64,000 nucleotides of DNA from Arabidopsis thaliana (Eukaryota; Streptophyta; Magnoliopsida; Brassicales; Brassicaceae). The position numbers were made by a program, and so were the translations under genes. A model generated the notes under the pieces. It did no database searches. It saw only the letters and a list, made by a program, of their open reading frames with translations, and was not told where the DNA came from. Positions 45,912 to 60,200 of this stretch are shown piece after piece. The stretch lies in the NCBI RefSeq assembly GCF_000001735.4, contig NC_003074.8, positions 19,909,261 to 19,973,260 of the forward strand, read 5' to 3'. The first letter of the stretch is position 1; each line of letters begins with the position of its first letter.

Positions 45912-46321
45912 ATCAAAAGATGTCTTTTGTTGAATTTTAAAGTTGAAAAAGAACAAAGTTCCACTGCTTTAAGCTTTGATCGAGAATGTGTAAACGATTC
46001 AATTTTCAATAAAAGTAGGATTTTGCAGACATATTAACAATCTCTTATGTTCATACAGTAAATCACTAATCCGAGAGGTTGATGATAGATAATCTAACAG
46101 TTATATTTGAAAGAGAAATATAGACGAGTATTAGACTGTAGATAGAATCTGATTCCATTGGCCTCAAAGCCTAATAATTATCTTTAATAAAGCAGAAAAA
46201 TCGAAAACATGAATTCGCATAAAGAGAAACTAACATTTTCAATTCAATGACAAAGCCACATAGCTAATAAATCGAAACCTCAAAAAACAAACAAGAGCTT
46301 ATGACATTGTCAGATTGTCTC
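45912..46321. other. Convergent 3' regions of AKR4C11 and RPS21
   Basis: Only 3' UTR-like AT-rich DNA with AATAAAAG near 46010. No gene is seen. Confidence 0.5.
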
Positions 46322-46789
<468 letters not shown>

Positions 46790-47081
46790 TTTTGAGATTT
46801 AGCTTCAAAAAAAAATCGATCTGAGCAAGTAAACAAACAAAAAAACTAATCAGATGAGCAATAGAACCTCGAATTAAGAGATTCATCAAGAATAATTGAT
46901 CACATTCAACAATAATATATAATCAACAAAAGACACAACGAGATAACTAATTCTGAAATCGAAACCTAGATTATTCCGATGCGTTAATTAGCAATACAGT
47001 GAAAGGAGATTAAGATACTACGGAGAAATTCTCACCTGCGAGGAAGAAGAAGAATCTGAGAGAGGTTTGGCGGCGACAAAG

Positions 47082-47150
47082 ATAGGGTTTGCTTAATTCA
47101 TAGGTTTATTAGATTTATAGTAGCGAGCTAGGGTTTGCTTATTTCATAGG
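47082..47150 (-). promoter_or_regulatory. Duplicated telo-box segment upstream of RPS21
   Basis: ATAGGGTTTGCTTAATTCATAGG (47082-47104) and CTAGGGTTTGCTTATTTCATAGG (47128-47150) match at 21 of 23 positions with a 46-bp period. Each contains TAGGGTTT, which on the gene's strand reads AAACCCTA, the telo-box. The two copies put two telo-boxes near the RPS21 transcript start. Confidence 0.8.
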
Positions 47151-47653
47151 AATGACTACTATACCCTTCAACTTTTAATTGAAGAGCAATAAAAACCGAT
47201 CCAATTAGAGCGGTATACAAAATTAAATCAAACCGAAATACTAAACTTTTTCAACCAGAATTGTACCGACAGTTAATTGTAACCGGAATCGAACGTAACC
47301 AAACCATAAATACTGGTTCAGTTTGGTAGTAACTTAAGTTCATTCAATTTGATAACAAACTTTTATTATTGGTTCAAATGTTTGCTTCATGGATGAATTT
47401 TTCAGATTTTCTTGCATACTTTTTCCCAAAATGGTTTGTGGTAGACAATTGAGAATGATACACATAAAATGGTTGACAAGTTTGTTCTCTGTTTTGTAAT
47501 AATGAGGAATTCAGTTTTTCTTGTTTGTGAAATTTTGACTCTTTATCGAAACCCTCTCAAGAACCTGAAATCACACATCAAAAACAAAGTACAAGAGACA
47601 CAATATATAATCTAACGATTGTGACTGTTAAAGTTTAACAACTCATACAAGTA
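47151..47653. other. Intergenic between RPS21 promoter and UPP 3' end
   Basis: AT-rich spacer with two or three CCGAAxC phrases (AACCGAAATAC, ACCGGAATCG) and the UPP 3' UTR. No gene is seen. Confidence 0.5.
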
Positions 47654-49746
47654 TCACTTCACCCAATGTGTTTCTGTCCCGAAACTGCGGTCTCCAGCGT
47701 CTCCAAGCCCAGGGATTATGTACCTAGTTCATGACAAATACATAAGGACATTAAAATACAATCGCCAGTTTTCATATGGAAAGCCAAAGAACCTAATGAC
47801 TTACCCCTTTTCATTGACTTCAGGATCAATAATTCCAGCATATACATGAAGCCTGAAATGTTTCAAATAGTAGCCAAACAGTTTAGTAAAAAGAGAGTTA
47901 ACTAAATGGTAAGCAAGGTGAGAGTTGATCTTTTGCTATTGATTACCCGGGGAATTTCTCGTTAAGCTTCGATAGTGCAGGAGGTGCAGCAATCGCACAA
48001 ATCTGTAATCAGAAAAATCAAAACAATTAACACTTCGATTTCTGACAAAAGCTGTTTCCTATATATATGCTTACCACTTTGATTTGCTGAACAGACAAAC
48101 CACGTTCCTTCAATAGATCCATCGCCGCCATTATGGTACCACCTAAAATACAAGTTACTAAGTTACTAAACCTACGCTTCTAGCTATGAAACATTCGTAT
48201 TACCATGTCATGCGTTCACATTCACATATTATCGTGTACATTTGAACATCAAACCCTAACTATACTTCTAATATGGAGGTGGCTAAAATGATAAGACTTT
48301 CTTACCTGTGGCAAGCACTGGGTCGACCAAAAATACTCTTGAATTCTTGGGAAATTCATCAGGCAACCTAAAGAAGATGTATCAAAGGTGTTATTATAAA
48401 CACTTCAGTAACTACAAACACAATGCTGCAGAGAAGTTCTTACTTGTTAAGATACACCGATGGTAAAAGTGTTTTCTCATCTCTACTTACTCCTGTAAAA
48501 GAAAAGAAGCACGGGGACATCAATAAGCTATTTGATAAAAGTTTTCATTTTTGACATCCGAAGTTCAGGCAAGAGATGATATATAGCTAGATTACTAACC
48601 TAAATGATAAATTTTATTAGCAGGTAAAACTGAGGATGCGTGTTCCGCAAGAGCAAGACCAGCTCTTAATATCGGAACAACCTACACAGAGACAAAACCA
48701 AGAATTAGAAACGCTTACATGTAAGGTCGAAAAGAAAATATAGACAGGAAGAGTTTGAGGGATAAACAAACCGCAATAGGCTCTCTAGGATCAATGAATT
48801 CAACAGAAGCAGGACCCATTGGAGACATTATTTCACCCACAACAGTTGGCTTAACCGCATAGAGCAAAAAACAAAAAACAATAAGCAAAAAACGGGTAGG
48901 AAGAATTCAAGAATAATAGAGATGTGAAATTCTACGCACCAGCCACTCTCGTGATGCTTCATACATGAGTAATCTCCCTAGTTCAGCTATTGCATTCCCT
49001 AGATAATTAAAAAAACTCAAGCTTTAAAGATCAACACAGACTTATACTAGTAGCAAACCTAAAAAAACTCATATTCAAACGCAATGTAGCAGATAACACC
49101 AATCTAAGAGCTAAAGATTGTCCAACGAATCAAAAAAAAAAAAAAAAAAAATGGATGTAAAATTCAGTTCTTTAACAACAAACACTGGTTAAATCGCAGA
49201 AATACTCATAAGAATCTTATCTACTCACTGAAAACAGGACAAGGAGTTTGTTCATTTCTCAGAACAGAGATCCAGTGTTTGATCAAAGGATGTGGTGGCA
49301 CAAAGACCTGAAACACCAGAATCAAATTCACATCTTTCACTTTCAAATCAAACTCAAAAAAAATCTGAAAATTGAAATCCTAGAGTTTTATTACCAGCAT
49401 CCTGTTGCTCCCGTTAATGGAAGCCTCCGACGCAGCCATTTTTGTTCTAGCTCGTATAGTCCGTCGGGAAAGTGACGAAGAAGAAGCACCCAAATTCTTT
49501 AAAATAATCCAGAAATTCGAAAATCAAAATTCAGTTTGAATATGCAAAAGGCGTTACTGGAAAAGTGTGCTTTGGACATTAGAATAAATATATATATATA
49601 CTCGATACCTGTGCGAGAATTGGGGAGGAATTAAAGGAGAGGAAAGAGGAAGGATTAGGGTTTAGGCGGCTGCTGCATTGTTGTCGGGGAGCAAAACGCA
49701 GCGTATCAGAAGAACACCTGAAAGCGTTACCAATTGAGCACGCCAT
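47654..49746 (-). CDS. UPP: Uracil phosphoribosyltransferase, plastid
   Basis: Twelve exons: 49746-49609, 49496-49395, 49307-49229, 48998-48940, 48849-48772, 48681-48600, 48492-48444, 48367-48306, 48142-48075, 48002-47947, 47852-47805, 47723-47654. They give 296 residues. The N-terminal 65-70 residues ([20 protein letters not shown] ... [20 protein letters not shown]) form a plastid transit peptide rich in Ser and Arg. The enzyme runs [60 protein letters not shown], the PRPP loop [17 protein letters not shown], and the uracil-binding [20 protein letters not shown]. It converts uracil and PRPP to UMP, the pyrimidine salvage step needed in young leaves and chloroplasts. All catalytic motifs are intact. 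Exons 1-3 have a second, diverged copy upstream of SIGC at 54156-54560. At3g53900 by recall. Confidence 0.95.
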
Positions 49747-50584
49747 TTTCGACGAGATGTCCGAATCTGGTTCGAGATTTTTGCAATGACGATAGCGCGG
49801 GCGAAGATTAACCGGTCGTCACTACTGTACCGAATAACTTTGGGTCTACTTATTACACGGCCCATTGGGCTTTTATATTAATTTTTAGCAATTTCTTTCC
49901 AAACAGAAATCTACAAATTAAGGAATAAATTAATAAATAATTTATTAATTTACATAGAGAGTTTTCTAATGTAGTAACTTTTTAAAAGTTTCTACAAGAT
50001 ATTTTTCATCATAGAGAATATCTTTCTAAAACCAATTGCAAGTAAAAAATAATTATCATGTCTATAAAACAATATCAAAAGTTTTGATACAGTAAAATAT
50101 TATAACTAAATTCAAATAAGAACAAATACGAGTTTAAGCAAAAAAATATTAGAAATTTCTTACATATAATATATTAGATATATATATATTTTATATTTAT
50201 ACAATTACTAATTTATAATATTGATGGGATCATATATTTACATAGGATTTTCAAAAAAATTATTATTTTATTAATTTATCAATTTGTGTCACTTTTTACA
50301 GTCCCAACTCGGGACTGGAAAAAATTATTAATCTTATATAGATTATTAATTTATCGAGTATTAATTTATAGAGGTTTTACTATTACAATAAACTTGAAAA
50401 CTTATTTAGACTAGACTCCTTAACTCTTCTCCTCTTCAACTCATTCATCAGTTTTTGTAACAAATCTCTGAAACTGTACAAACCAGACACGGATTCTTTG
50501 TCTGAGAATTCAGGCACAATTAAGAAGTCCTAAGCCCTGTTTGAAGATTCTCAAAAGTCTTTAACCAAATACAGCAAAAAATGT
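49747..50584. other. UPP promoter and AT-rich MITE-bearing spacer
   Basis: The first about 120 bp are UPP leader and promoter (GGCCCATTGGGC near 49858, a palindromic Site II-like pair). From 49900 on the DNA is strongly AT-rich and contains the Emigrant-like elements described separately. No gene is seen. Confidence 0.55.
50090..50382. mobile_element. Degenerate Emigrant-like MITE (pogo-type, non-autonomous DNA element)
   Basis: The right end reads, on the minus strand from 50382, TAGTAAAACCTCTATAAATT followed by AATA. This is close to the CAGTAAAACCTCTATAAATT terminal repeat that I recall for Arabidopsis Emigrant. The left end at 50090 begins CAGTAAAATATTATAACTAA and is preceded by TA, the target of pogo/Tc1-like elements. 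The right TA is not preserved. The inside is AT-rich with TTAATTTATC repeats and a palindromic CAGTCCCAACTCGGGACTGG. The total is about 290 bp, short for Emigrant (about 550 bp), so it is probably deleted and old. No transposase frame. A related palindromic scrap lies at 49914-49971. Family assignment is from memory. Confidence 0.45.
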
Positions 50585-50956
50585 TTAGAGAAAGATCAAA
50601 CCACAATCAAAAGTTTGTAAACCGAAATAGCAACAAAAGTCTAGAGAAAGATGAAACAACACACATAGAACCATGTCTTGTGGATGTAAGAAAGATTCAC
50701 TTACCCTCTGTAGCAAAGTGATGTCTTTCTCAATGGTAACTTTCACTCTCGGCTTGATAGCTTTAATCGCTCTCTCCTCGTATTTGGCGAGTCCCTGAAG
50801 ATCTGAATCTATCACTTCCTCAATTCTCTTCTTCCCAATCTTTGTCCTCGTAGCAAAATAAGGGAGCTCGGTGACCGAAGAGGCCACAAAAGCAAAATCG
50901 AAGACGTCATCATCTCCGTCCAGAGCACGAATGAGTGACTTTAGAAACGATATCAT
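50585..50956 (-). pseudogene. Truncated plastid NAD-malate dehydrogenase-like fragment
   Basis: An open frame of 123 codons. About the first 83 residues match the C-terminal end of plastid NAD-dependent malate dehydrogenase: RALDGDDDVFDFAFVASSVT, ELPYFATRTKIGKKRIEEVI, DSDLQGLAKYEERAIKAIKP. The plastid isoform has RALDGDGDVYECSFVESTLT and VIESDLQGLTEYEQKALEAL in the same place. Similarity extends about 10 codons 5' of the ATG (to roughly 50985, TSAYAMISF) and stops near 50700 at a GTAAGT donor. The whole NAD-binding half and the catalytic Asp/His region are missing, so no MDH activity is possible. The plastid MDH gene is intronless, so either a DNA copy or a retrocopy would look like this. It may still be transcribed; I recall a locus here named malate dehydrogenase-related (At3g53910). 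Confidence 0.75.
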
Positions 50957-50985
50957 AGCGTATGCTGAAGTGAAAGATCGGGAAG

Positions 50986-51780
50986 CCTAGATCGGAGATA
51001 ACTCGAAATGTTAAGTCCCGCGAAAGAGGAAGAGAAAAAAAGAATTCACGGAAGAAAAAAAACTTAAAACGGAGGACAAAGACGAGAAGGAAGGTGATTA
51101 TCATCCGATTCACTTCCAACCCGACGATTGAACACTCCAAGTTAAACGAGAAAGAAGGACTCACGGTCCGAGTTTCTAAGGAACATCCGAATTTCTTTCA
51201 ACTCTCGGTCATACTTCGCAAAAGGTAATCGGATTTTATGACCCGCATGTGAGCTAAGCTTTAGCGGGTTAGACCGAGTTAAGAGACATAGAGAATCCGA
51301 GAGGAAGTACCCCGAGAAAAGAAGAACCAAGAAAAAACTTGATCCGAGAAAGGAGTTGTCGTTAGGTGGTTAGATATAATCTTTTTCAATTAGTAAAATT
51401 AAAAATTAAAATTTTTTTATATATATAATAGCAAAAAGTATGAATTGTTTATAATTGATAAAATATATAATACTAAATTACATAATAAATTTTATAATTG
51501 GTTCAATTGAAATTCAATATAATAATTGCACAAATGCAAGATAATTGATACAGCTATATTGTAAAAGTAATCGAAGGATGTGTAGATTATCCAAGTGGTT
51601 AGGATTTTATAACTTGTACAATATCTATTTTCACTGTAATATAACTATATAAGTTTACAACCCCGTACAAGACATTTTACACTCGAGGATCTCCAATGTT
51701 ACTATTATAAACACACAAGATTACACAATCACACTGTGACAGAAGACATAAGAGTCATTGGAGCCAAAAATCTCTATTTT
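50986..51780. other. Spacer between MDH-like fragment and SIGC
   Basis: No recognisable MDH N-terminal sequence lies upstream of the fragment. From 51361 the DNA is AT-rich with TATATATA near 51418. The right end is the SIGC 3' UTR. Confidence 0.5.
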
Positions 51781-53992
51781 TTACTGATTCAAATAATATC
51801 TGAGGTCTTCGGCGTTGGGTTGGTCTCTGAGTTTAGCCATTGCTCTCCGTTCGATCTTCCGAATCCATTCTTTGCTAACTTTAAGAAGCTTCCCAATCTC
51901 TTCCAGGGACTTGGGCCTGTAGTCTTGAAGACCATAACGTAGGACCATCACTTGCTTCTCTCTTGGCTCTAACCCTTCTAGAAGATCATGTATGTCTCTC
52001 CTCGCGCTCTGCCTCATCACGGCCTCCTCAGGACTCTCCATCGTTGTGTCTGGTGTAAATTCCTGCATACTCGGAAAACAAACGTTGAGTCTCAAAACTG
52101 AACCAAACTGAACAAAAAGAATAGCTTAAATCTAAACTGAACCAATCTTTATGATAAACCTGATGGTAACAGTATTTTCATATCCAAAAAACCAAATTTA
52201 AACTTAAACTAATCAAATCTTGGTCCTTGTTCGATAGACATTTCTCAAAACCAAAGATTGAAGCAAACTAAACAGACATACCAGGAATTTTGTAGTAAAG
52301 CAATCCCCAACTTTCTTGTCAATTGAACCGACCACTTTTAGGCATTGGTTAGCTGCTCGAATCTTCTTCACCGAGTGGCCTGTTAGTTTTGCAATCTCCT
52401 CATCAGCCGCATATTTTATACCATGGCTCGTTTTCAGGGTCTTACGAGCCTTTTGTATATGATTGATAGTTCGGATTATTGATGACTGCCAAAAAAACAG
52501 AAACAATAAAGGAAAACAAGTGAGGTTCTAGCTTTGTTGAAAATGAGACAAAAAGGGCCAAAAATCAAAATGCACAAACAGGAATATGGACGCCTCTTGC
52601 ATGCCGTGACACCATCGTAGACATTGATTTTCTTATCCAATACTGCACATATGTTGAAAACTTGTAACCCCTTGTGTGATCAAACCTCTCTGCTCCTTGT
52701 AACACCCCCACATACCCTGCCTGAAAAAGCCACAACATTAGGACAAAAGGAACTACAATGACAATTTTAATTCTTTCCACTTGCAAAGTTTCATCATTTG
52801 TGTACCAAGCAGAATCATGAAACCAAGCCAGACGTTTCCTATCTGTTCTTTCTGTAATCCTAATCTAAAACATAGAATTTTTGCAAGACTCTTAATACGA
52901 TTCTAAGGAGAGAGATGAACCTGAATTAAATCTTCGTGGGCGATTCCCAGTCCACGGTAATTTCTTGCGAGGAAGAGAACCAAAGACCGGGTGCTTTTCA
53001 CCAGTTCATCTCTACAGTACCAACCGTAATGTAGATTGCGCATCAGGAGTTTCTCGTTCATCCCAGCTGCTGCAGCCCAACAACTCAAACTCGCTACCTT
53101 ACCACTTTCTTCCTCCAGTTGTGTTCTGATTCTCTCCATGTCCGCCACTATCTTTAAAAGATACATGAGAGTGTCGTAAGGTTAACAAAAAGTGAACAAA
53201 GGAAAGGAAAAAAAGTTACAGGAAGATTTCACACTGAACCTTGACTCCTGTTGACATCTCAGTCTCGTTTCTAGAGATCCTCTCTCTTTTCTTTCTATAT
53301 TTTGGTGGTCTTCTCACTCTAGGGACATCAATATTGTTCCATGTAGTTCTTAAACCGATTGGCAGAGAACTCTGATCACCATTCTCAGCTGTCACACTCG
53401 ACCTCCTTGCTTTCTTTTTTACTTTTCTCCTCGAGGATACAAAGACTTGTTGATTCGGCGTAGTATCCACCAACTCAGTTGTGTCAGATAAGCACGACGT
53501 GATTGAGGAACCACGATACCTAGATAGACAGGTTTTAAATAACTCAGCAGCCCCCAACTTCCCCATTTGCAACATAATATCTCTTTCCATTCTTACAGAA
53601 TCCAAGGCAACAAACGTTTCCTCTAGTGCCAAAAGGTTCTTTGCCAGTAAATTGTATTGCAACATGCTACGAGATGAATATGATCTTTCTGCAGAACCCA
53701 CGCCAATATTTTCCTGAAAACATGGCAAAGAATTCTGAATATCGCAAACAAGGAAAAAGTGTGAAAAAGTGTCCATCTGCAGTGAAATTCAACACACCTT
53801 TGGGTCTTTGAGCTCAACATAAACATTATTTTGTGCAGTGTAAGGAGATACAGATGCGCAGCCACATGCTTTTAGAGAATCGTTCTGATAAATTCTGCTT
53901 TCCTCTTTGACTGAGGATAGAAACGACCACCTCGTTGCAACCACAGAAGTCATTGGAATTCTAACTGAAGCATCAAGTAACAGAGAAGCCAT
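51781..53992 (-). CDS. SIGC: Plastid RNA polymerase sigma factor SIGC (SIG3)
   Basis: Six exons from the ATG at 53992 (53992-53798, 53713-53240, 53151-52921, 52720-52580, 52485-52282, 52062-51781) give 508 residues. The variable N-terminal half is followed by bacterial-type sigma-70 regions: 2.1-2.2 ([40 protein letters not shown]), 2.3-2.4 ([20 protein letters not shown]), 3 ([20 protein letters not shown]), and 4 with its helix-turn-helix ([40 protein letters not shown]). It directs the plastid-encoded RNA polymerase, and SIG3 is known for the psbN promoter. The acceptor at 54056 also keeps frame with an ATG at 54055 (21 residues more). In-frame splicing to two UPP-like exons would give 575 residues, close to the about 570 I recall for SIG3, so the true start may be 54560. 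Confidence 0.92.
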
Positions 53993-54155
53993 CCAACAAG
54001 TAGCAAAGACGTCAAATTTTGGATCAAGTAGTTGGTTATATGAAATAAGAAGCATCTAATTTTTCAAGTGAAAACCCATAATAACAACGGCAAGCACAAA
54101 GAGACGTTGCAAATTCGATCACAAGAGTGACCGTAATCATAATTTTTGTACTCAC

Positions 54156-54560
54156 CGAAAATGGGGAAAGAAGTTTGGTCAGATCTCAATAACGAGAGCC
54201 AATGTTTAATCAAAGGATGAGGATGTACAAAGACCTGATCCAAAGGAAAATATTTCACACTAATTCAAATTAAATTCAGAGAGAATTCAAAGAAAGAGAA
54301 GAAGAGAGCGTCATCGGGCTACCAGCATACTATTGGTAGAGGTCATAGACGATGTTAAACTCGATCGCACTAAAATACGTGGCCGAGAAGTAGAGGAGGA
54401 CGACGAAGAAGAAGAACCAACAATCTATCATCCGAAAAATAAAAACACACAGAGAAATCAGCTCGAGAGTGGACGCACGCGTGTCTATACGATTGATATG
54501 TACATGTAAGGAGAGACAACAAACCTGTTTGGGAATGGGGAACGAATTGAAGGAAGCCAT
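54156..54560 (-). CDS. Second copy of UPP exons 1-3, upstream of SIGC
   Basis: Three exon-like blocks with GT-AG borders. 54560-54525 encodes [12 protein letters not shown] and resembles the end of UPP exon 1 ([12 protein letters not shown]). 54424-54323 is 102 nt like UPP exon 2, with IVGSSSSS... ending TSTNSML against NGSNRML. 54234-54156 is 79 nt like UPP exon 3, with [20 protein letters not shown] against [20 protein letters not shown]. Phases are the same. Exon 3 DNA is about 75% identical (59 of 79 by eye), yet all frames stay open. Exons 4-12 of UPP are absent; SIGC follows instead. If all three exons are used, splicing to the SIGC acceptor (54056) shifts frame and stops after six codons. 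If exon 3 is skipped, exons 1-2 join SIGC in frame. So this may be a relic or SIGC's own 5' end and transit peptide. Confidence 0.7.
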
Positions 54561-55007
54561 TGAGACGCAGATGGGAGCGGAGGAAGGAGATGATTGGAGT
54601 CAGTGGAGAGATATAGTTTGTGTGCAAATTGTATGGTCTACGACTTCTCTCTTCTAATTTGCCTAATTCCCTCTCTCCGTTTCGTTGCCACTCTTTTTTT
54701 TTTTTTTTTTTTTTTTTTTACTCAGTTGTAAATTTTTATACACAAAATATCTAAACCCAAATCCAAATTTTATGCAACCATAACTGAATAAACCGACGTT
54801 TTCATTCAATGTATATGTTTATAGCAATATCCTAATCACTAGAACATGAAATGCAAACGTAAAGAAATATAAACTTGGTCTATATTAAAAGAGAAGACAA
54901 AATAATGCTTTGTGTAATTATGAAAAAGATAAGCCATGAGGATTCTATGTTGTACAAATCTACCAGAGGACCAAAAAAGAAAAGTGAAAGAAACAGAGGA
55001 TCATCGA
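54561..55007. other. Spacer upstream of SIGC/UPP-like exons
   Basis: Contains the promoter of the SIGC/UPP-like transcript and a run of 26 T at 54694-54719. The right part is likely the 3' UTR of the 53-codon membrane ORF. No other gene is seen. Confidence 0.5.
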
Positions 55008-55169
55008 CTAAAATCCGGCATGCCCTCCGTCGCAGGCGGCACAACCAGTATCATCATCATCATTTTCGCGATTAGGTTTAGTGCTGATGCAGCAACACAC
55101 GAGAGCCGCCAGCAAGATGAATCCCCAAACAAATGCAAATGATTGTGCCAGCTTCAAGAATTTCTCCAT
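55008..55169 (-). CDS. Small (53-residue) single-pass membrane protein, unrecognised
   Basis: An ATG at 55169 opens 53 codons to TAG at 55008. The protein reads MEKFLKLAQSFAFVWGFILL (amphipathic start, then a hydrophobic helix), AALVCCCISTKPNRENDDDD (three Cys at the membrane edge, then an acid run) and ends TGCAACDGGHAGF. So it has one membrane segment (about residues 10-27), a juxtamembrane CCC that could be acylated, and a short polar tail with two more Cys. Composition differs from the AT-rich flanks: the frame is GC-richer and has balanced codons. A TATATAAAG-like box lies on the same strand near 55389-55382. I recognise no family; it is not of the C-terminal CYSTM type. It could be one of the many unannotated small Arabidopsis proteins. 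The function is unknown. Confidence 0.55.
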   Translation of the reverse strand: MEKFLKLAQSFAFVWGFILLAALVCCCISTKPNRENDDDDTGCAACDGGHAGF

Positions 55170-57280
55170 TTTTGTGTTCATACAATTCCTCTTCTTGTCA
55201 TGATCACATCTCTAATAAACCACCCAAAAGCCTTGAAAATTTCATTTTAATATCGGCAGAAATAAAAGAATGGAACATTGTAGATATGCATATCGAGAAA
55301 GATGTGAACAAGTGTTTTAATTTATAGAGAAAGAGGAATCAAGACCAACATGTTCGAGAGTATAAAATGACCTGTGACTCCTTTATATATTAAACCATGA
55401 TGGGATATGATGTTGAATGATCTGTGGGCATGTGTGGGATTTATTATATGTTTTAATGACCTTTTTTGCCAGATCGAATAATTTTGTTGGTTGATTCTTT
55501 TTTTATGTTATTTATCATTATGTATGCGTATATGACTATTACAACCTCATTTTAATTACCTTTAATGGAATAAATGATACATAACTGAATTATTCAGCCA
55601 TGAACCAAACACGAGGAATAAAGAAGAAGAAAAAAAAGACAAAGCATTCAAGTTTTTTAAAAGGAAGGTAAGTTTTCTGTTTGTTTTTATGCTGGAGATT
55701 AAAAGTGAATTACTGTACATAGATGGTTTGGTTGAATTATGAAAATAATGCTATGTTTTTGTTATTTATTTAAGAAAACTGTCACAAGTGTAATATATTA
55801 TACATTGCCAAAGTTCTTCATTTATATATTGCCACAAGTGTAAGAATTCCTTGAATCATTTTTATTTTGATTTAGTGTATCATCTAAGTTTTTCTGTCTC
55901 TTGACTCACATATGGTTCTAAGTCTAAGTGGATGCATATGAATCCCTACTGGGCCAAAAATAAAGAGAAGTCCATGGAGATTATAAAAAAAGTTTTATGG
56001 CCCACTGGACAAGAAGACAAGTTCATACATGGTTCCGCTAATATATGAAAAAGCACAAATTTGGTCCGGTATGGTTAACAATTTTGATCAAATTGTCAGC
56101 ATTTTCTTATATCCAAAGAGTTCCAGATCATTTGAAAGACCATTTGAAGATTATGAATGTTGTACTATCCGAGTTAAGAACAAAAAAAATCTGATTTTCA
56201 AAGGAAACACATGTGAGAATCATAGACATAAACATGCAACATTGCAACAAATGACCAATCATGAGAGAGTTTGCCAAATACCATGCTAAAGATTCGAACC
56301 AGGACCTTTAGGTATTTAGTTTGAGTATATTATCTCCCAAATTTGAAACTGAAACGTAAGGATTATGGAAAGAAATAAACGGCTGGAAAGAGTTAGCAAA
56401 AGCGGCTAAAGTCACAATCAAGCAGAAAAAGCTAGTGGGCTTTTCACAACGGCACGCTATATAGGCTGCTCTGGATCCTACAAATTAAAATTCTTGTGTG
56501 ACTACTTAACGCTATTTCCTACTATTTATTTATACGTTTATATCAATATACACGTAATCCCATTTTCACACTTCATATAAAACGTTTATACTCCATCTTT
56601 ATTTTTATTTTATCGACAAATTTGTTTCTGTGAATTGTTTCAAATCTTCAATCCAAAAGCAGTTCATACAGAAGTTTGTTTTGGAAATGTAAACACAAAA
56701 AATATTTGTAACGGACACCAATAATTTCAATAGATATTAATTAATCTGATCAAGGAACAACAGATTTTTTGTTTTGTTTAAGGTAGTAATGTTTACAATT
56801 CGAAAATATTTGAAGATTTGTAGTAACGACGCGTAGAAACATAAGTTCGTAGTTATTTCATAACTTTAAATTGTTATGATTGGTGTAGCTTGTAGCGATG
56901 ACTTCATAGTTTAAGACCACTAATCATGCTGTCATTATGTCCACTCAAAGCCGTAATTTTAAATAAAACCATACTATTAAAATTTAATACAAATCATCAT
57001 CATCTCCGATCGTATAAATCAGAAGCGTCATTTTACAAGTTGATTCCTTTGCTCTAATAATATTAGTAAAAAAAAACTTTGCATTGAATTCAATTCAAAA
57101 TAAACCTTTCTTTCTTTCTTTCTTTCTTCTCTATCATTTTATCTGAATCCGCCTCCCAAATTCAATCCTTTAATTTTCAACTCCAAATCGATCCTTCAAT
57201 CAATTTCTGAAACTTTTAGTCATCATCAGCTCAATTTCGGATCTCCGGAGTTGTATTTTTACTCCTTTGTCGGAGGTAAA
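55170..57280. other. Intergenic between small ORF and ATG1b
   Basis: About 2.1 kb of AT-rich DNA. An 86-codon frame at 56029-56289 has no domain and ends near GATTCGAACC, a lone T-loop-like phrase without a tRNA body. The right end is the ATG1b leader, with a CTTT microsatellite at 57106-57127 typical of CT-rich plant 5' UTRs. Confidence 0.5.
57106..57127 (+). repeat. CTTT microsatellite in ATG1b leader
   Basis: About five uninterrupted CTTT units lie roughly 155 bp upstream of the ATG1b start, probably at or near the transcript start. Confidence 0.8.
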
Positions 57281-60200
57281 ATGGCTCAGTCGTCGTTGGT
57301 GGCGGCGGCGGGGAGAAGCGGAAGGGTTATCGGCGATTATGCGGTGGGTCGACAAATCGGGTCGGGGTCGTTTTCCGTGGTTTGGGAAGGGAGGCATCTT
57401 GTTCATGGCACCGTCGTTGCTATCAAGGAGATCGCTATGGCTCGGCTTAATAAGAAGTTGCAAGAGAGTCTCATGTCGGAGATTATCATCTTAAGGAAGA
57501 TTAATCATCCTAACATCATTCGCTTTATCGACATGATCGAGGTTTATATTTCTCTTGTTGTTTCTGGGTTTTTAGTTTTTTCTTATTGCTCTTAGTTTCT
57601 AGCTAGAGGATTTGAATGCGATGAGTCTAGATGTTTAGGTTTGGGTTTTGGGGTTTAGTGAGTTCTCTTTGGTTGTCTAGTAAAATAGAATCAGAACAGT
57701 CATGATATGGAATGATGTAGCTCGTATAAGCTGACATTGTTGGTGGGATTCTAAAAATGTGTCAGCTTTGTTGAATATTACAACGAGGAAAAGACTAGGT
57801 CATATGTTTTAGCTGGACCCTTATGTAGGCTGATTATTAGTTGTATTGGAAATGGTAAATGTTTAAACTTTATGAAACTTGGTTTAGGCTCCCGGGAAGA
57901 TAAATTTGGTGTTGGAGTACTGTAAAGGTGGTGATCTGTCTATGTATATTCACAAACATGGAAGTGTTCCTGAAGCTACTGCTAAGCATTTTATGCTGCA
58001 GTTAGGTACAAGTTTGAAAAAGATTCTTCATCATTTACTGTTTTGTTTGGATCAGTAGAATCACATTCTCATTCTTTGTATAAATTTTCGGTGTAATAGC
58101 GGCTGGCTTACAAGTTCTTCGTGACAATAATATCATTCACCGCGATTTAAAGCCTCAGGTATGTCTGATAACTCAAACCCAGATTTGATCTTTTTATGTC
58201 AGTTAGACCATGACAATACGTGAGAGCTCATTCTTAAAGATTAATCTCTCGAAGAGTTGAAAGGACGCCGTAGAAGGGTATTCTGTTAGGTTTCTCACAG
58301 GATATGGTTTCTTTCCGAGAAATTCTTTCACTAGCTGAGATAAAGATTTTTTCTGAAATTGAAATTCGATTGCTAAGGTTCTTTCGTTCTTGAAACAGAA
58401 TCTTCTTCTATCCACAGATGATAATGATGCAGCTCTGAAGATTGCCGATTTTGGATTTGCAAGGTATTTTAGTCAGCCCCTTTGTTACAGAAACAATGAG
58501 TGTAATGTGATAATCAGAGTTGGTCTTATATGGTTTCTGCTTTTCTTGTATCTATCTATCTAGCACTTAAACATCACACTATCTAGCCTGTGGTAGCACC
58601 CTTTGAGTTTGTAATTAGCACTTAAACATCACACTTTCTTAGCTCAGATCGTTGCAGCCTAGGGGTTTGGCAGAAACTTTATGTGGTTCACCACTGTATA
58701 TGGCCCCAGAGATTATGCAGCTTCAAAAATATGATGCAAAGGTGCGACTTTTTGTTTCTATATACCACATAGGCCATTCTTATACCATATCCTGCTTAAA
58801 ATCTTCATTGCTACACAGGCAGATCTCTGGAGTGTTGGTGCTATATTATTTCAACTTGTGACAGGCAGAACCCCTTTTACAGGAAACAGCCAAATTCAGG
58901 TTTTGTATATCAAGTTTTGAAAATATCTAGAAATGTAAATGTTTGTGTTTTGGTGAATGCAGCACGGCTAACATGCTCTCCATCTTATGTCCACAGTTGC
59001 TCCAGAACATTATAAGATCAACTGAATTACATTTTCCAGCAGACTGTAGAGATTTGAGTACCGACTGTAAAGATCTATGCCAGAAGCTACTGCGTCGTAA
59101 TCCAGGTAAGCATCTTTGTAAATATATTTCCAGATTCTGTTAGCATATGTGGGTTTATCTAATTTTGAAGAAGTTACAAGAGAATGCGCAAGTCAGACTA
59201 TTTTCATTTTTGTCATGGTCACAGTTTTTGTTTTGTGAAAAATTACGGCTAAAAATTTGAAATTGTCCATTTGGGTGTCTTAAACACTCTGGGTATTGAT
59301 TTCAAATGGACGTTTACCATTAAGCTCCTTTCATGGTCCTTATTTGTTAGTGTTTAACATTTTATTTTTGGGGATCTTCTGTCCGACAGTGGAACGTTTG
59401 ACGTTTGAAGAGTTTTTTCATCATCCTTTCCTTTCAGACAAACAATCATATGATTTCACAAGGTAGATATGGTGCTAAAGTAGTTTCTTTATCATTTGTG
59501 GTATAAACTGTTTTATTGATGATGATTTACGTTGCAGGAGTAGATTAGATTCACGAACTATGAACGATTTTCATTCATCAGGAAGCAGTCCCTCAAGAAA
59601 TATAGAAGAAATTTCTCAAGAAGACGGGTTGCCGTTCTTTTTAGATGATGATTCTAGTGGACCTGAGGGAAGCCCTTCATCTTTTAAACATACTTCCCCG
59701 ATGAAGTCATCTTACGGATTTAGTGTTGAAAGAAGGGAGGCAGCATTAAGTCCTTTGAAAAACATGGATCTTTCTTCCAGATATAGTAGAGTCAGTCATA
59801 GAGCAGAAACCAATAATTTCAAGTTTGAGGGCCATAGATTATCAGATAGAAGCCAATTCAAACCGTCAAGCTTACCTGATTCCAGATCATTTAGTACCCA
59901 AGGAAGAGGTAATCAAATTTCTATAATTTGCTTAGCCCATAAAACTAAAATTGTCTTTGGAAAAGATGCCTCGCGCAGTTTCTAATATATGTTGGTTCCG
60001 GAAGTAGGGGATTCTCCAGACTCAATGGATCAAGATTATGTTCTGATATCTGGACCACCGGTTGATATACCATCATCTTCATCTGGTTCTCCGAAGCCTT
60101 TCAATTACCCATTCAAATCACATTCTCCTCCTGTAGAGTTCATCAAGAGAAATGTAACTAATTTAACGGCTCCTATGCCAATAGCTAGTGCTACTGGCAA

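Follow-up and report, generated by a model that had tools for sequence, protein, structure and literature searches.

The first three coding exons of SIG3, a plastid sigma-70 factor gene of Arabidopsis thaliana, were in all probability captured from UPP, the gene of plastid uracil phosphoribosyltransferase (UPRTase), about 5 kb away on the same (minus) strand and in the same orientation. Both lie within the window, a stretch of 64,000 nucleotides from contig NC_003074.8 (19909261–19973260). Capture would have proceeded by local duplication of the 5′ part of UPP and splicing of its third exon to an acceptor at position 53964, giving a 571-aa precursor. The outcome would be a gene of nine coding exons (six if the UPP-like exons are left out), the first three derived from UPP exons 1–3 and encoding residues 1–72 of the 571-residue precursor. 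The features concerned are listed in Table 1. UPP itself is intact: 11 joined exons read open over 273 codons, the last exon was matched separately (residues 272–296), and the Pfam UPRTase domain is complete in the protein, starting at residue 83, within exon 3. In SIG3, exons 5–9 encode Pfam Sigma70_r2, r3 and r4 (sigma-70 regions 2, 3 and 4), all above curated cut-offs.

Table 1. Positions of SIG3, UPP and associated features in the window.
Feature	Position	Strand	Basis or remark
UPP gene	49746 to about 47657	minus	protein search and joined exons
UPP exons 1–3 (donor)	49746–49609 (138 nt), 49496–49395 (102 nt), 49307–49229 (79 nt)	minus	
SIG3 coding sequence (SIGC, At3g53920 in the literature)	54560 to 51781	minus	joined exons open
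SIG3 coding exon 1 (12 aa)	54525–54560	minus	24/36 nt when right-aligned with the 3′ end of UPP exon 1; GT donor
SIG3 coding exon 2 (34 aa, rich in Ser/Thr and lacking acidic residues)	54323–54424	minus	counterpart of UPP exon 2; GT/AG borders
SIG3 coding exon 3 (26 aa)	54156–54234	minus	counterpart of UPP exon 3
SIG3 intron 3, fusion intron (191 nt, phase 1)	53965–54155	minus	acceptor 53964
SIG3 exon 4, first of SIG3's own part	53798–53964	minus	entered in phase 1; AG/GT borders
SIG3 exons 5–9	53713–53240, 53151–52921, 52720–52580, 52485–52282, 52062–51781	minus	open, AG/GT borders
Acceptor AG 54057–54056 with first exon base 54055	54055–54057	minus	earlier proposal; probably not used
Protein kinase gene	start 57281	plus	

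The three UPP-like blocks that the initial annotation had placed upstream of SIG3 on the minus strand (54560–54525, 54424–54323 and 54234–54156) are present where it put them, and exons 2 and 3 do share their lengths (102 and 79 nt) and phases with UPP. As had also been claimed, the splice sites are intact and the frame is open: all five borders inside the block are GT/AG, and all three exons read through. Similarity is strongest in exon 3, where SIG3 and UPP match at 59/79 nt without gaps and at 18/26 aa, a level equalled by none of 1000 dinucleotide-preserving shuffles, the measure of significance applied exon by exon. Among the matches listed when 54800–53900 was compared with the window by blastn, the one match not due to poly-A joined 54238–54149 to UPP 49311–49222 (78% over 90 nt, E 4e-15). 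Exon 2 agrees at 50/102 nt ungapped, its significance being carried by a 17-nt Ser-coding core (0/1000 shuffles as good), and exon 1 at 24/36 nt (6/1000 shuffles as good, p 0.006), only the last 36 nt of the 138-nt UPP exon 1 being comparable with it. Each of these two being weak alone, homology of exons 1 and 2 rests mainly on their collinearity with exon 3. Introns 1 and 2 are near-equal in length in SIG3 and UPP (100 versus 112 nt and 88 versus 87 nt), and the phase-1 donor that follows exon 3 is common to both genes; comparison of introns 1, 2 and 3 with their UPP counterparts revealed no clear similarity of sequence (p 0.54, 0.08 and 0.61, 1000 shuffles each).

Chance resemblance or convergence between serine-rich leaders is the reading that the weak similarity of exons 1 and 2 would invite, the significant part of exon 2 being a Ser-coding run. 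For exon 3 it is already refuted by an identity of 75% across its 79 nt and by exon borders and phase that match those of UPP. Moreover, when the UPP protein was searched against the genome, the sole exon 3-like place reported outside UPP, among the best candidates, was the SIG3 block, and convergence is as an overall explanation scarcely credible. A DNA search of the genome with the block returned only the block itself and, having missed UPP exon 3, has no bearing on uniqueness. Similarity does not extend upstream of the genes: when upstream stretches of 740 and 760 bases were compared between the two genes, the local score was 31, and the best of 200 shuffles reached 34. The suggestion that SIG3 had received the UPP promoter along with the exons thus found no backing, no upstream similarity beyond that of shuffles remaining.

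How the block is joined to the rest of SIG3 was the point on which the original proposal had to be revised. Exons 1, 2 and 3 joined to acceptor 53964, which lies 91 nt beyond the previously favoured 54055, give an open frame of 571 aa with GT/AG at every intron and a stop ending at 51781. This is presumably also the length of the SIG3 entry in UniProt. The assertion that inclusion of exon 3 shifts the frame and leads to a quick stop is correct for acceptor 54055 (78 aa) and wrong for 53964, where the 571-aa frame is open. Four further in-frame AGs lie deeper in the SIG3 exon, and would give 553, 551, 539 and 518 aa; SIG3's own part alone encodes 508 aa from an ATG at 53992 or 529 aa from an ATG at 54055. 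Scored with a weight matrix built from the 16 acceptors of UPP and SIG3, a small set, 53964 reached 2.5, the top value of the 14 AGs in 54150–53801, the other four in-frame AGs reaching at most 0.9. Among all AGs on its strand it is a moderate acceptor (87.8th percentile), and that of SIG3 exon 2 stands at the 98.8th percentile.

By the earlier account, exon capture had joined exons 1 and 2 directly to acceptor 54055, skipping exon 3, to give a product of 575 aa, perhaps as a regulated isoform. Exon 2 does end in phase 0, and the 575-aa frame was reproduced as computed and is open; as a description of actual splicing, neither the skipping, nor the acceptor, nor the 575-aa product found support. 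Acceptor 54055 scored −2.0, lower than any of the 16 references, whose leave-one-out scores ran from −0.6 to 13.6, and skipping would leave the conservation of exon 3 without a reason. This form of capture is accordingly rated as highly improbable, and regulated skipping is unsupported; the best reading, held with strong confidence, is that all three UPP-like exons are spliced to 53964 to yield the 571-aa product. With that acceptor, skipping of exon 3 (79 nt) would break the frame, whereas exon 2 (102 nt) could be skipped without changing it.

Published lengths offer a check on these forms. Bock et al. (2014, PMC4243499) amplified the unconserved region of SIG3 by PCR from cDNA and put its length, counted from behind the start codon, at 768 bp, although their primer table lists no SIG3 primer for the region. 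In the 571-aa form, residue 256 (768 bp) falls between NNI and DVPR, 30 residues before the next intron. The SIG2 border, located by a primer from the same study, falls between N and DPLR, 29 residues before the next intron, and the SIG6 border between D and DALQ, also 29 residues before the intron, as deduced from the 696 bp (232 residues) stated in PMC4243499 and the T244/T249 numbering used in PMC2988416. For SIG1, the stated 555 bp was reproduced from the primer positions of PMC4243499. Elsewhere the fit is poorer: the published region would end 4 residues short of the SIG2/SIG6 border in the 575-aa form, and past the next intron in the 508-aa form (between NE and KLLM) and the 529-aa form (between QL and EEES). 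With its 768-bp region ending where SIG2 and SIG6 have their border, the 571-aa form fits best of the four readings. The rule is not general, the distance from border to intron being 39 residues in SIG1 and 20 in SIG4, unlike the 29, 29 and 30 of SIG2, SIG6 and SIG3.

Exon number points the same way. A T-DNA insertion is placed in exon 7 of SIG3 by the legend to Figure 1 of PMC4243499, so that more than six exons are needed; a 5′ UTR exon could also raise the count. For BnSIG3A of Brassica napus, twelve exons are given (PMC13073550). Published length and exon number, as far as those sources describe them, indirectly support the presence of all three UPP-like exons in SIG3 cDNA. The open 571-aa join and the cDNA-based length both support the proposal that SIG3 owes its 5′ coding end to exons captured from UPP, a gene for a plastid protein.

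The copied exons differed in dN/dS. Exon 3 of SIG3 differs from that of UPP by 9 synonymous and 10 non-synonymous differences over 26 codons (dS 0.87, dN 0.19, dN/dS 0.22), whereas exon 2 is close to neutral (dS 1.0, dN 0.8, dN/dS 0.8), as might be expected either of a dead copy or of a fast-changing transit peptide. The dN/dS comparison by which the captured exons were to be judged hence gives a divided answer, speaking against neutrality in exon 3 and not in exon 2. For a neutral copy facing a constrained UPP, retention of at least 18/26 exon 3 residues had a probability of 0.002 at a divergence of 0.435 per branch and 0.056 at 0.3. When a neutral copy, simulated without indels, had to retain no fewer than 18/26 residues along with the ten splice bases and an open frame in all three exons, this was achieved in 0/3000 runs at 0.47 per branch, in 2/3000 (0.0007) at 0.32, and with a frequency of 0.019 at 0.2. 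Exon 3 identity becomes unremarkable (P 0.98) if only half of the differences arose neutrally in the copy. The case that exon 3 is under constraint, which is built on 26 codons and on a divergence treated as known, can be called good, not overwhelming.

These figures bear on the alternative in which the UPP-like block is a relic, dead or untranslated, and translation of SIG3 begins at an ATG of its own, at 53992 for a 508-aa product or at 54055 for one of 529 aa. In favour of a relic, an in-frame ATG is present at 53992, exon 2 is nearly neutral at a dN/dS of 0.8, and the copy yielded no UPP exon beyond these three. Neutral decay of the whole block, however, fits poorly in simulation, and neither a broken frame nor broken splice sites, the marks of an unprocessed pseudogene, were found, the three exons being open with GT/AG intact. 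In both shorter forms the published 768 bp would run on beyond the next intron and the exons would number six, against the exon 7 named in the figure legend, and the 508-aa leader carries 4 acidic residues in its first 46. A relic is judged very unlikely.

The direction of copying could be read from bacteria. Scanned with the SIG3 N-terminus, bacterial genomes yielded 280 relatives, of which the best 80 were all cyanobacterial; 79 of these 80 loci contained a 26-residue window scoring at least 50 against UPP exon 3, in 47 distinct forms, and all three loci tested were UPRTases by Pfam. UPP is taken as the source because exon 3 matches these cyanobacterial uracil phosphoribosyltransferases. At exon 3 positions 4 and 22, proline occurs in all 47 forms and in UPP, where SIG3 has His and Ser; at position 13, Leu occurs in all 47 forms and is kept in SIG3, UPP having Ile. 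The SIG3 copy has left behind part of the constraints of the enzyme while keeping 18/26 residues. In viral contigs, 11 stretches matched the search pattern and none was a relative.

Most likely, the 5′ part of UPP was long ago duplicated locally, the copy coming to lie immediately upstream of SIG3 and co-oriented with it, after which the donor of UPP exon 3 would have come to be spliced to the AG at 53964, inside what had been the first coding exon of SIG3. The position of this acceptor within an old exon is consistent with the open leader, with its own ATG, that runs up to it. Upstream of SIG3 and in its introns, a search for relics of later UPP exons, or of the DNA between UPP and SIG3, gave nothing convincing (best matches: UPP protein, E 0.22; DNA, 27 nt, E 0.004). 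A full tandem duplication would predict such relics; given that none was convincing, the duplication route is one that we infer. Nor does chromosome 2 date the event: in C2:15832200-15852000, upstream of a related kinase, neither SIG3 nor UPP had a match at E ≤ 1, nor did the DNA of window positions 46000–58500 at E ≤ 0.01, the region yielding one match of E 0.65 to the open frame between UPP and SIG3.

As to function, exons 1 and 2 (46 residues) most likely serve as a plastid transit peptide, to judge from their composition: SIG3 residues 1–46 include 21 Ser/Thr, 4 basic and no acidic residues, which is compatible with plastid import, and the first 46 residues of the 508-aa leader include 10 Ser/Thr with the 4 acidic residues noted above. 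UPP is called plastidic in PMC4130198, and SIG3 is reported in PMC3933795 to target psbN in plastids. The 26-residue piece of enzyme domain encoded by exon 3 may be kept within the transit peptide or may stand at the beginning of the mature variable region.

At its 3′ end (53965–54055), downstream of an in-frame stop, the fusion intron has 30 open codons in the SIG3 frame, with two in-frame ATGs among them. The inner of these, at 53992 (MASLLLDAS...), may be the old start of SIG3, surviving as a fossil or as an alternative start. SIG3 could in principle be made with two different N-termini, that of the UPP-derived 571-aa precursor and that of a 508-aa product begun at ATG 53992 and driven by an internal promoter located within intron 3 or ahead of it, an arrangement considered unlikely. 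Were it true, capture would have added a second, separately regulated presequence instead of replacing the first, and the supply of SIG3 would follow two promoters.

Presequences of organelle proteins are known to have been acquired by exon shuffling, as from GapC to cytochrome c1, with presequence exons moved between unrelated genes and their phase kept. SIG3 differs from cases of this type in that its donor lies close by, about 5 kb away on the strand that SIG3 itself occupies. A closer parallel is nuclear rpl32 of Populus and other Malpighiales, whose transit peptide derives from SOD1 (Ueda et al. 2007, as described in PMC8018952). There too, by that description, exon shuffling supplied a gene for a plastid protein with its transit peptide, the source being a duplicated copy of another nuclear gene whose product is plastidic. 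Three features of the SOD1-rpl32 type, namely homologous 5′ exons, common intron positions and phases, and an intact donor, are found in SIG3 and UPP. However, rpl32 had newly moved from plastid to nucleus and needed a presequence, whereas SIG3 was probably already nuclear and targeted. Capture in SIG3 would therefore, unlike that in rpl32 as described, be a replacement or extension, and one that also carried the start of the donor's enzyme domain.

In the literature searched, which does not extend to most subscription journals, no paper was found describing a UPP origin of the first 72 residues of SIG3, nor one naming both At3g53900 and At3g53920. The SIG3 gene model is almost surely annotated already, and presequence gain by exon duplication is a known process, of which UPP to SIG3 would be a new case. 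N-terminal regions of plant sigma factors are described as highly variable, with a regulatory role (PMC2988416, PMC4243499). The variable N-terminus of SIG3 would thereby gain a concrete, datable origin in a neighbouring enzyme gene. Such a history would mean that a plastid regulator is able to acquire both the presequence and the beginning of the enzyme domain of a metabolic gene lying next to it.

Three minor features were observed in the surrounding DNA. Between SIG3 and UPP, a minus-strand open frame of 123 aa occupies 50585–50956; for its first 83 residues Pfam gave nothing above cut-off. The interval between SIG3 and the kinase gene holds, also on the minus strand, at 55008–55169, an open frame of 53 aa with a hydrophobic stretch and a Cys-containing tail, for which the one Pfam match was a weak one to WBP-1 (E 0.05, from a query with one wrong residue). 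Finally, 26 consecutive T, read as A on the SIG3 strand, occupy 54694–54719, some 135–160 bases upstream of the SIG3 start codon and near the putative promoter.
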